Program-made: the position numbers and the translations under genes | Assembly (NCBI RefSeq): GCF_902506575.1 | Contig: NZ_LR732544.1 | Coordinates: forward strand, 6,462,748-6,526,747 | Direction of reading: 5' to 3' | Origin: Streptomyces mexicanus | GTDB lineage: Bacteria; Actinomycetota; Actinomycetes; Streptomycetales; Streptomycetaceae | Length of the DNA: 64,000 nt | Notes under the pieces: generated by a model | Databases searched by the model: none | What the model saw: only the letters and a program-made list of their open reading frames with translations | What the model was told of the DNA's origin: nothing | In this document: positions 59,625 to 64,000 of the stretch, piece after piece | How the letters are laid out: every line of letters starts with the position of its first letter | Numbering within the stretch: the stretch's first letter is position 1

Positions 59625-59939
59625 CTACGGTTCTTGACGTGGCTCGAAATCGGCTCCAACGAAGTAAAGATACCCGTGGGACGCGATCGCGAATTCAGCC
59701 GCAGCCGCAAGCTTTCGCACAGTGCTGTTCCTCTTGTCAACAGGCAGCTGATTCAGTTCGGCCACAAACTGAATCAGCTGGATCTCGTTGAACATGGTGT
59801 CGCCGTAGCGGTTCACCGCGCGCAGAATGCTTCCCTCGGGCGCCGCTTCACACAAAGCAAGAAAGGCCTCTTTCCGGTCTTCGTGAGTCTTGGCCATGCG
59901 CTCGTGATTCTGGTCCTCTATGTATACGACAAGGGGCAT
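59625..59939 (-). CDS. Small protein, GDTMFNE family, copy 2
   Basis: 104 residues from ATG 59939 (AGAGGAAGAAG upstream). It reads VYIEDQNHERMAKTHEDRKE, FLALCEAAPEGSILRAVNRY, GDTMFNEIQLIQFVAELNQL and SHGYLYFVGADFEP. It is paralogous to the next gene upstream in its operon, sharing FL-LC-APE-S-LR-V---GDTMFNE-Q and HGYLY--G. Soluble, helical, acidic. I do not recognise a named family. Tandem duplication after a toxin-like tail suggests immunity proteins (inference). Confidence 0.75.
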   Translation of the reverse strand: MPLVVYIEDQNHERMAKTHEDRKEAFLALCEAAPEGSILRAVNRYGDTMFNEIQLIQFVAELNQLPVDKRNSTVRKLAAAAEFAIASHGYLYFVGADFEPRQEP

Positions 59940-60033
59940 ATGAGTCTTCTTCCTCTGAAGCGCTAGGTCGTCATGCTCAGTATGAGACGGGAAGACGGGG
60001 TGGAACAAAGTCCACCCCGTCCAGGTATGAGCG

Positions 60034-60321
60034 TCAGTCCCCTGAAATGTACAAATACCCATGGCAGGAGGATGCCTGCAACGCCAGCTCCGTGACGCGT
60101 CGGATCACTGGTAGCCGGCTGGCCTCAGGAATCCTGGTCAGCTCATCCACTAGGCGACGACACTGCAGCTCATTGAACATCGTGTCACCGATCGCCTGCA
60201 CCCCTCGCAGGACGCTGCTCTCGGGTGCCTCCCGGCACAAAGACAGGAAACTCTGATTGAGGTCGTCCCCAACCTTTTCAGAGATACGCTCATGTAGGCT
60301 GTTCTGCAGGTGGATTTCCAT
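60034..60321 (-). CDS. Small protein, GDTMFNE family, copy 1
   Basis: 95 residues from ATG 60321 (GGAAGGAA four bases upstream). It reads MEIHLQNSLHERISEKVGDD, FLSLCREAPESSVLRGVQAI, GDTMFNELQCRRLVDELTRI and SSCHGYLYISGD. It begins 14 bases after the stop of an upstream coding fragment and is followed 94 bases later by its paralogue, making an operon. It is soluble, with no signal or membrane segment. Function unknown; the arrangement resembles polymorphic toxin immunity cassettes. Confidence 0.75.
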   Translation of the reverse strand: MEIHLQNSLHERISEKVGDDLNQSFLSLCREAPESSVLRGVQAIGDTMFNELQCRRLVDELTRIPEASRLPVIRRVTELALQASSCHGYLYISGD

Positions 60322-60787: not shown

Positions 60788-63700
60788 GTGGGGACATTGA
60801 GCGGACCTACAGCGTTTGAGGGTGAAGGCTCGGGAGTATCGAGCGGGGTGCCCGTCGATGACGACATGATGCGGCTGCGGTACAGCCCATGGGGGGATGT
60901 GGACGCTGCCCGCGAGCTGGTAGGTGACGTACCGGAAATTCTCTACGACATCCAGGAGGCCGCGGACCGGCTTGGTCTGCCGCACATGCGTCGGCTTCCG
61001 GCGGCCGCGCTCCCGGAGGGCCGCACCCTGCCGTCCGGGCTGTACGTGTTCCAGTCGAGGAGACCGTCCGGTGTCGCTTCCGCCGCACTCGTGCTGAGCG
61101 GCGGCGGCACCTCGGTTCCGCCCGAGCACAAGCGGCTTCGAGACGTCGACGACGACCACATGCTGCACCGCGCCCTGATGTTCTACCGGGATTGGAGGGA
61201 GAGCGCGCGCAGTGGCGCGTCGGCTGCTCCTGCCGCTTACGCGGTGGGAGACGTCGTACGCGTGGCGGCTCGGGAAGGGGTCTTCACCGTCACGGGTGTG
61301 CGTGCGGTGCGCGGGGCCGGCCATCAGTACACGCTGCGGGGTCCCGACCGGCGGCCGATCAAGGTCTTCGAGAACGCCCTCGAGGCCGTCGACGACATGT
61401 CCGACGAGCCGGAGGACTGGATCCGCAGCACTCCTGTTTCGGCCGCGGACACGGCGTTGCGGTTGACGCTAGCCAAGCTCAGCACGCCCCTCACCGACAC
61501 GGTGTACTCGTTCCAGTCGAGCCGGACGGTCTTCCGGCCGTACCAGTTCCGCCCGGTGCTCAAGCTGATGAACTCCGACCGCCAGCGGCTGCTGATCGCC
61601 GATGAGGTGGGTCTGGGCAAGACCATTGAGGCCGGGCTGATCTGGAACGAGCTGGAGCAGCGTACCCATTTGGCACGCACGACGGAGCGGCGCGCTGCCC
61701 TTCACTTCCGTGGACTGGTGGTCTGTCCGGCCGCGCTGGTGCACAAGTGGCGCGACGAGATGAGCCAGCGCTTCGACCGGCAGCTGCGTGTCCTCGACAA
61801 CGAGGGGATGGAGGAGCTCCTGTCGTTGTTGCGCCGGGGTGAGGACGAGCAGCCCTTCGCGGGGGTGGTTTCGCTGGAGCGGTTGCGGCGTGCGGGTCAG
61901 CTCACCGAGCTCGCCGAGCTCCACCCCCGCTTCGACCTGGTGATCGTCGACGAGGCCCACTACGTACGCAATGCGGCCAGCCGGAGCCACGCCGCGGTCA
62001 GTCAGCTGGCGGACTGGGCCGATGCCCTGATCTTCCTCTCGGCGACCCCGCTGAACCTCGGCAATCAGGACCTGTACACCCTCGTCCACCTGCTCGACCC
62101 GAGCGCGTTCCCCGATCCTCGCGTCTTCGAGAGCCAACTGGAGCCCAATGGGCATCTGAACGATGTCGCCGCCCGTCTCGCGCAGGGTGCGGGAGGCACC
62201 CCGGGTGGAGCGAAGACGCTTCTGCCGGTCCTGAAGCGTGTCAATCGGTCGCGGTTCGGGCAGCTGGTCGCCAGGCGACCGGAGTACAAGCGTCTCCAGC
62301 GGATCCTCGACACTTCGGACCCGCTGTCGGCGCGGCAGCTGTCCGAGGCCAGGAGGTGCATCGCGGACCTCAATGCCTTGGCCGACATCGTGACCCGCAC
62401 CCGGAAGGCGGACACTCCCGACGCGAAGGCGGTGCGGCAGCCCGAGGACGTACGGGTCCAGTGGACTGCGCAGGAGCGCGAGTTCTACGACCGGCTGCAC
62501 GCCTGGTGCCTGCAGCGGGCCGCTCGCAGTGGCACGGCGGCGGGGTTCGCCGCGCAGATGTGGCTCCGGCAGGCCGCGAGTTGCATCCCCGCCATGCAGC
62601 AGCGTCTGCGGGAACGCTTCCAGGAGAAGGCCGCCGACCTCGAGGTCGAAGAGGAGCTGCTGCTGGACGACGACACCGAGAGCGACATCGCGGCGGAGGA
62701 CGTCGCCCGGGCGGCCGACGACGAGGCCGAGCAGTTGGCGCGTCGTCTGCCCGAGCTCCTCAGGCCGCTGCCCGACACGAAGTTCGACGCCTTCGTCGCC
62801 ATGCTGAGGGACGCCCGGGCCAAGGGACTTCGGCAGGCCATGGTGTTCTCCTTCTTCACCCGCACCCTGGAGTACTTGGCCGGCAGGCTCGGCGAAGAGT
62901 TCCGTGTGCGGGTCATGCACGGCGGCGTGCCGCAGGAGGAACGCACCTGCATCATGGCGGACTTCCGGGCCGGGCGCTTCGATCTGCTCCTGGTGAGCGA
63001 GGTCGGCAGCGAGGGCCTGGACTTCGAGTTCTGCAACGTGCTGGTCAACTACGACCTGCCGTGGAACCCGATGCGGGTGGAGCAGCGCATCGGTCGTCTC
63101 GACCGGTTCGGACAGAAGCATGAGAAGATCTTCATCTTCAATATGCAGGTGCCGGGCACCATCGAGACCGACATCTTCCAGCGCCTGTACCAACGAATCG
63201 GCGTCTTCCAGTCCTCCATCGGAGAGCTCGAGCCGATCCTGCGCGGCAGCCTCCGCAACCTGCAGCGCGTCGTGCTGGATCCCAGTCTCAGCCCGCAGGA
63301 GCGCCGCCGTCAGATCGAGCGGATCGAGGTCGCCCGGGTGGACCGTGAGAAGGACATCCGGACCCTGGAAAAGGCCAGGGAGGTGCTCACCGGTCTGGAC
63401 GATCTCCTCGTCGAGGGTTTCGACGAGGAGAGCCCCGGCCGCGGCCGCTATCTCGGTCCCAAGGAACTGCGCGGACTGGTGGAGGCGTTCCTCGAGGAAA
63501 CCGGATACGGCAAGGTGCGGCAGGTCGCGGGCGCCGAGGACCTGGTGGACATCACCGGCAGCGCAGAGCTGCGCAAGACCATGTACGAGGCCAGCAACGC
63601 GGGAGCCTTCCCGTTCCCCAGGGGCAGTGACCTGATGGCTCGGGTGGGGGGCGGGCAGCAGGTGCTGCGTGCCTGTTTCACCTCCCGTACGAGCACGGAG

Positions 63701-64000
63701 ACGGGCGCGCCGCTGCTGAGCGTGCGGCATCCCCTGGTGCGTACCGCCCACTGGTGGTTCGCGGAGCACGAGGAACGGCTCGGCCGCTACGGCCGGGTGC
63801 GGGTGCCGGGGCTTCCTCCGGGTTCCCGCTACCTGGTGCAGGTCACCCTCGCCCGCGTGGACGGTGCCCGTCCGCGCCGCGAGCTGTGGACCACCACCCT
63901 CGACACCGCCACCGGCAGGGAGGTGCTGGAGGTGGGGTCCGCGTTGCTGACCGCCCTTGCCGCCGGTGACCTTGAGGACGTGCCGCAGGCCTTGCCGGCC
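60788..64000 (+). CDS. SNF2-type helicase, 3' end outside window
   Basis: 1071 codons and still open at the edge. The start is uncertain: GTG 60788 is chosen for CAGGA upstream; GTG 60752 and TTG 60797 are alternatives. The first 260 residues are a family-specific region (RYSPWGDVDAARELVGDVPE, YAVGDVVRVAAREGVFTVTG). Helicase motifs follow: LLIADEVGLGKTIEAGLIWN (I, about 271), LVIVDEAHYVRN (II), LSATPLNL (III), SEVGSEGLDFEFCNVLVNYD (V, about 737) and RVEQRIGRLDRFGQKHEKIF (VI). This RapA/HepA-like architecture is typical of defence-operon helicases such as DrmD of DISARM. It remodels or translocates on DNA. Neighbours to the right are needed to name the system. Confidence 0.88.
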   Translation, partial: MGTLSGPTAFEGEGSGVSSGVPVDDDMMRLRYSPWGDVDAARELVGDVPEILYDIQEAADRLGLPHMRRLPAAALPEGRTLPSGLYVFQSRRPSGVASAALVLSGGGTSVPPEHKRLRDVDDDHMLHRALMFYRDWRESARSGASAAPAAYAVGDVVRVAAREGVFTVTGVRAVRGAGHQYTLRGPDRRPIKVFENALEAVDDMSDEPEDWIRSTPVSAADTALRLTLAKLSTPLTDTVYSFQSSRTVFRPYQFRPVLKLMNSDRQRLLIADEVGLGKTIEAGLIWNELEQRTHLARTTERRAALHFRGLVVCPAALVHKWRDEMSQRFDRQLRVLDNEGMEELLSLLRRGEDEQPFAGVVSLERLRRAGQLTELAELHPRFDLVIVDEAHYVRNAASRSHAAVSQLADWADALIFLSATPLNLGNQDLYTLVHLLDPSAFPDPRVFESQLEPNGHLNDVAARLAQGAGGTPGGAKTLLPVLKRVNRSRFGQLVARRPEYKRLQRILDTSDPLSARQLSEARRCIADLNALADIVTRTRKADTPDAKAVRQPEDVRVQWTAQEREFYDRLHAWCLQRAARSGTAAGFAAQMWLRQAASCIPAMQQRLRERFQEKAADLEVEEELLLDDDTESDIAAEDVARAADDEAEQLARRLPELLRPLPDTKFDAFVAMLRDARAKGLRQAMVFSFFTRTLEYLAGRLGEEFRVRVMHGGVPQEERTCIMADFRAGRFDLLLVSEVGSEGLDFEFCNVLVNYDLPWNPMRVEQRIGRLDRFGQKHEKIFIFNMQVPGTIETDIFQRLYQRIGVFQSSIGELEPILRGSLRNLQRVVLDPSLSPQERRRQIERIEVARVDREKDIRTLEKAREVLTGLDDLLVEGFDEESPGRGRYLGPKELRGLVEAFLEETGYGKVRQVAGAEDLVDITGSAELRKTMYEASNAGAFPFPRGSDLMARVGGGQQVLRACFTSRTSTETGAPLLSVRHPLVRTAHWWFAEHEERLGRYGRVRVPGLPPGSRYLVQVTLARVDGARPRRELWTTTLDTATGREVLEVGSALLTALAAGDLEDVPQALPA

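Follow-up and report, generated by a model that had tools for sequence, protein, structure and literature searches.

We found that a SNF2/RapA-like helicase gene at the right edge of a 64,000-nucleotide stretch of Streptomyces mexicanus DNA (hereafter the window; G000:C17:6462748-6526747) is met from the opposite strand by two further genes, one for an Hsp70-like protein and one for a GrpE-like coiled-coil protein. The three genes, their families, and their order and orientation are conserved in two distant genomes. We see about an even chance that they form a single module whose putative products act jointly on foreign DNA. The same contig was read onward past the window edge, and positions in that part are given on the stretch L006, in which a position equals the window position minus 59752 (Table 1).

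An earlier note on this DNA had reported an intact SNF2/RapA-like ATPase of more than 1070 residues at 60788, and our data confirm it. The frame is open from 60590/60788 to the end of the window and closes at L006:4575, which extrapolates to window position 64327; the start codon is uncertain (60590, 60788 or 60866/60869). Both expected Pfam domains score well above their cut-offs (SNF2-rel_dom, 80 bits; Helicase_C, 86 bits), and the motifs ADEVGLGKT, DEAH, SATP and QRIGRLDRFGQ are intact by eye. Among solved structures, RapA is the closest by sequence (E 5e-37) and provides the first five Foldseek matches of an AlphaFold model of the part encoded within the window (best E 5.8e-29), with TM-scores by query length of only 0.33-0.45. 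The model has a mean pLDDT of 74, with residues 1-126 below 50. These data suggest that the helicase is an ATP-driven double-stranded DNA translocase of the SNF2/RapA type, an activity that we infer from its family. It differs from RapA itself in reaching 181/576 bits against the equivalog NF003426 (PRK04914), in carrying an extra N-terminal extension, and in being accessory. Upstream of the helicase lie transposase- and integrase-like pieces of open reading frames (ORFs), recognized by eye only.

The N-terminal region had been described as private over 260 residues. This description fits approximately the first 145 residues, which align weakly and with only four relatives, from the same phylum or from Actinomycetota, but not residues ~150-245, which align with the N-terminal part of a wider clade. 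Residues 30-151 matched two other genomes of 150 searched, one of the copies containing an internal stop. Another genome of the family holds a piece (L113; G023:C99:1-2240) that is 43% identical over 68 residues to the extension; no helicase follows it in that frame (by eye), and it looks like a decayed copy.

The stop codons of the helicase and Hsp70-like genes are four bases apart on opposite strands, so that the two genes stand tail to tail, and the coiled-coil gene precedes the Hsp70-like gene, 70 bases upstream of its start. The Hsp70-like protein matches PF00012 with 63.9 bits (cut-off 20.6), over profile positions 62-370 of 599 only. Its nucleotide-binding motifs can be seen by eye in the alignment, and its matches to the NCBIfam HscA and DnaK models lie far under their cut-offs. 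When a profile of the coiled-coil C-terminus, made from two sequences (its own and that of the second genome, G304), was compared with all PDB chains, GrpE was both the first match (3a6m, E 1.4e-4) and the second (8gb3, E 0.018).

G304 belongs to another family of the same class, and it contains a helicase, a convergent Hsp70 and a coiled-coil gene in the order and orientation of the window genome. The helicases are 43% identical by tblastn and 42% by alignment, the Hsp70-like proteins 37% and 36%, respectively, and in G304 the helicase and Hsp70 frames overlap by 8 bases. The coiled-coil C-termini share 36% identity over 128 residues; comparing just the two sequences gives E 1e-10, and z is 16.8 relative to shuffled sequences.

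The window helicase is an accessory gene. At E 1e-30, a helicase match was found in 4 of 297 family genomes, its own included, and the other three matches are SNF2 proteins that are 32-35% identical over the core and lie outside its clade; at E 1e-50, 5 of 396 phylum genomes had a match, again counting its own. A class-wide search with the Hsp70-like protein (394 genomes, E 1e-25) returned its own genome and G304 only. Among plasmids, the Hsp70-like protein gave one weak match and the coiled-coil protein none, and in viral contigs, two short patterns taken from the Hsp70-like protein's peptide sequence hit 35 stretches, with no relative among them.

We next questioned whether helicases of this kind are accompanied by chaperone genes elsewhere. 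A scan of genome contigs with the single helicase protein gave no match, and a helicase alignment was used as the query instead against one genome for each of 84,980 species. The best 80 of 568 relatives were kept and, together with 8 examined plasmid loci (from 104 plasmid records with helicase matches) and 3 loci from family genomes, make up a set of 91 loci, counted after the window's own locus, present in five copies, and three duplicates (L009-L011) had been removed. The 33 loci scoring above 270 bits to the window helicase are referred to here as close and the remaining 58 as lower-scoring. In 31 of the 33 close loci, a chaperone-type ATPase is encoded no more than 1.5 kb from the helicase, a count that describes those loci, because the partner profiles were built from their own partners and the comparison is circular. 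The lower-scoring loci, as the more independent part of the comparison, have such a partner in 4 of 58 cases, all with fragmentary helicase frames; three of these (L057, L070 and L075) fall inside the clade of partnered helicases, and L077 is too short for the tree.

That tree has 65 rows and was made by a quick method; several of its branches are long, and many of its rows have an odd composition. In it, the partnered helicases fall into a single 40-row clade with a support of 100, and partner type tracks the helicase tree, with 5 changes compared to a shuffled mean of 32.5. L125 lies inside the clade, and its contig ends within the helicase. In G337, the helicase (31%) and Hsp70 (30%) are on separate contigs and were excluded as a pair. 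The window helicase groups with that of G304 and three helicases linked to a UvrD-like gene (support 100), and with G304 alone at a support of 90. Two of these three, Mycobacterium L032 and Agrococcus L061, are the close loci without a chaperone partner; as in G551, the UvrD-like gene is directly downstream of the helicase (checked with Pfam UvrD for L061 and G551). In Mycobacterium sp. 1245111.1, a 1250-residue ORF (L032:15235-18987) comes after the helicase and UvrD-like genes.

The 31 partners of the close loci comprise 18 Hsp70/actin-like and 13 sacsin/Hsp90-like proteins. The Hsp70/actin-like partners contain the nucleotide-binding motifs of that superfamily; by sequence, they match structures of Hsp70 and, less strongly, those of MreB and actin (best E 3.8e-5). 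A model of the L050 partner (mean pLDDT 71.6) had Hsp70-family structures, or complexes holding one, as all 50 Foldseek matches shown, with TM-scores by query length of only 0.37-0.47. The sacsin assignment is based on Pfam SACS in three members scanned, TmtA-like PADLOC matches in two scanned, and profile matches in all 13, three of which are fragments at contig edges. PADLOC TmtA is presumably the Tiamat system, and the two scanned sacsin/Hsp90-like partners match it with 253 and 184 bits. In those loci the TmtA match adjoins an SNF2 helicase; at the window locus there is no such match.

Defence-type genes are found around several of these loci. The G304 module adjoins PglX-like, BrxL(-like) and GmrSD(-like) genes, and among the plasmid relatives L027 has HamA and HEPN genes nearby, L014 Cas genes and L015 a type I R (restriction) subunit. 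In L047, the gene that comes directly after the helicase and Hsp70-like genes encodes a PglX-like methylase (L047:14930-18436), an order that hints at a form of the pair with restriction-modification. The earlier note had proposed a helicase-based defence operon and had named DISARM class 1 as an example. The accessory distribution and the neighbours in G304 partly favour a helicase-based module, and the DISARM reading failed.

Specifically, the helicase had been likened to the gene that heads DISARM class 1, with a methylase, a DUF1998 protein or a phospholipase D to be expected downstream and with DrmD profiles as the comparison. The genes that follow directly are encoded on the opposite strand, and Pfam found no DNA methylase, DUF1998, phospholipase D or further helicase (DrmA) in 24 of the 30 downstream ORFs in 34 kb, the other six being short or containing masked letters. 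No DrmB (MZB, PF09369) is nearby; the nearest match on the contig is ~0.9 Mb away. The NCBIfam DrmD model NF038317 gives 315 bits compared to a cut-off of 610. Because the adjoining genes are convergent, no partner gene is among these 24 ORFs, the DrmD cut-off is missed, and MZB is remote, the DISARM reading was rejected. A looser form, in which the helicase is DrmD and the remaining genes of its DISARM class 1 system, or of a close relative of that restriction system, were rearranged or lost, appears very improbable to us. The best PADLOC model for the helicase is indeed DrmD (PDLC02623, 435 bits, no cut-off shown), which aligns with the SNF2 core and with much of the protein's length, and the methylase that follows the pair in L047 points the same way. 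Yet the same model gives 1027 bits on a helicase (L014:11974-15099) that is paired with an Hsp70-like gene and has no DISARM gene annotated around it, so that the DrmD label of PDLC02623 may mislead annotation pipelines. An MZB match was present somewhere in the genomes or records of 7 of the 29 close loci surveyed (L033, L038, L040 and L043 were left out), at 45 kb from the helicase in L025 and maybe ~18 kb in L069, where contig identity is not established; the other 22 had no match, and one DrmB-like query found nothing in the close loci at E 1e-4. The window locus thus differs from DISARM in its score under the curated cut-off, in having no recognized DISARM partners, and in having convergent chaperone genes instead. 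The same genome contains a separate defence locus, ~0.9 Mb away (L129; G000:C17:5603500-5623499), with a 981-residue SNF2 protein that matches DpdE nearly over its full length (1666 bits) and a DrmB-like protein (234 bits); the nearest MZB match mentioned above lies close to this SNF2 protein.

We hypothesized that, in the three-gene module, the motor would track along foreign DNA of a phage or plasmid, or would engage a polymerase stalled on it. The Hsp70-like ATPase, with the GrpE-like protein as its nucleotide-exchange factor, would then remodel or pull apart the protein complexes met, such as polymerase or replisome; in a variant of this scheme, the chaperone pair would gate the motor. Transcription or replication of the invader would stop as a result. 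DnaK, DnaJ and GrpE act on the replication machinery of phage lambda, a precedent for chaperones at this step. SNF2 motors and chaperone ATPases are each known separately from several prokaryotic conflict systems, and the pairing of a motor with an Hsp70 and an exchange factor of its own points to immunity through the disassembly of machines, which, to our knowledge, is not a known mode in bacteria. As a compact cassette of three genes, the module is a testable unit. More tentatively, and with a probability that we consider rather low, the whole clade of RapA/DrmD-like SNF2 motors might be a defence class in which a motor and an exchangeable chaperone ATPase (Hsp70-like with a GrpE-like factor, Hsp70/actin-like, or sacsin/Hsp90-like) disassemble complexes on invader DNA without cutting it.

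Several observations weigh against joint action in defence. Convergent genes are not one transcript, so the case for joint action comes from synteny, and the convergent Hsp70/GrpE form is known from two genomes only. The N-termini of the two coiled-coil proteins have no similarity (z -0.1), and the GrpE match is modest; since Pfam reports no GrpE, the gene is named GrpE-like only. No nuclease was recognized in the three genes, and no J-domain partner was noticed beside them, although no search was aimed at one. Three of the four nearest relatives of the window helicase have a UvrD-like gene instead of Hsp70. The defence neighbours were listed with no count against a control set, and they consequently support a defence role and do not prove it. 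Finally, the window Hsp70 scores 48 bits against the profile of the Hsp70/actin-like partners (a 97.7% profile match over 219 columns); of eight DnaK-like proteins from its own and the family genomes, four score 19-25 bits and four have no match. With Pfam HSP70, the window protein reaches 64 bits and none of four scanned Hsp70/actin-like partners matches. On sequence, the window Hsp70 appears to be at most a distant relative of the partners in the clade, so its recruitment may have been independent, and the pairing may have more than one origin.

Some of these observations would also fit two independent accessory units, a solitary RapA/DrmD-like helicase and, next to it, an Hsp70/GrpE-like unit for stress or conflict, with no function shared between the two. 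The lack of a shared transcript, the UvrD-like genes in place of an adjacent Hsp70 in the other three close relatives of the helicase, and the finding of a close Hsp70 relative in G304 only are all consistent with this, but G304 retains the tail-to-tail trio, with 36-43% identity, and partners of the chaperone type appear repeatedly across the helicase clade. We regard such independence as unlikely. Another possibility is that the genes serve the host, with a RapA-like motor that frees stalled RNA polymerase and a chaperone pair that rescues the polymerase, as a transcription-recycling or stress factor with no part in defence. The closeness to RapA in sequence and fold agrees with this, as does the UvrD-like partner of the three relatives, in which a HelD-like motif can be recognized by eye; HelD acts on RNA polymerase. 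A housekeeping factor would not be expected to have so patchy a distribution or defence-type neighbours in several loci, and PADLOC likens the L061 UvrD-like protein weakly to GajB (43 bits). A host role of this kind seems quite unlikely to us.

The three-gene module also differs from previously described systems that share some of its parts. Helicases related to BREX belong to the SNF2 family and are described as having a RapA-like architecture with an N-terminal TUDOR domain (PMC12839542). PADLOC gives the window helicase 174 bits for BrxHI and 163 bits for BrxHII; the partners in BrxHII/BREX-related loci are methylase and ATPase genes, whereas those at the window are Hsp70- and GrpE-like. 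CoCoNuT type IV restriction systems combine an Hsp70-like ATPase and coiled-coil proteins, with a vWA gene in some types, but are built on the McrB GTPase and McrC, neither of which was found by Pfam in the 24 downstream ORFs; in the sections of that paper available, SWI2/SNF2 appears only in legend lists of domains of associated systems (PMC11090510). Predicted conflict loci centred on a GAP1-N2 GTPase contain HSP70 and the exchange factor GrpE, mostly in actinobacteria and firmicutes; they differ in this GTPase centre, and the available text mentions SWI2/SNF2 as a CglI-like effector helicase (PMC7159879). Text searches of the open-licence literature, judged by titles and the opening of abstracts, brought up no description of a RapA/DrmD-like motor paired with an Hsp70 or sacsin partner.

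Table 1. Coordinates of the helicase gene and its two partner genes (aa, amino acids; positions are in the window unless marked L006)
Feature	Position	Strand	Remarks
SNF2/RapA-like helicase gene, intact	60788..64000, continues 327 bases past the window (L006:1036-4575)	+	1179 aa
N-terminal extension, ~residues 1-145	60788..61222	+	aligns only with four relatives
Hsp70-like gene	L006:4580-6265, beyond the window	minus	561 aa; Pfam HSP70
GrpE-like coiled-coil gene	L006:6336-8729, beyond the window	minus	797 aa; C-terminus shared with G304, GrpE matches

Upstream of the helicase, two adjacent small ORFs of ~100 residues each (window 59625-60062 and 60034-60321, minus strand) are paralogues of each other (phmmer E ~1e-19), with no match in Pfam, PADLOC or NCBIfam; perhaps they are immunity- or antitoxin-like. 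On the other side, beyond the coiled-coil gene, lie an RNase H-like fragment, a gene for 185 residues and a vWA gene. The first of these, just upstream of the GrpE-like gene (L006:8839-9321, minus strand), is a gene or gene fragment that weakly resembles ribonuclease H (Pfam RNase_H, 22 bits; cut-off 25.8). All three were set aside as parts of the module because phmmer found no homologue of them in the G304 stretches. In L050, a vWA homologue lies 4 kb upstream of the pair; we attributed this to chance, since vWA is common. From ~12 kb downstream, the genes are mostly metabolic or regulatory and include those for an alpha/beta hydrolase, asparagine synthase, glyceraldehyde-3-phosphate dehydrogenase, a GH127 enzyme, a sigma factor and ClpP.

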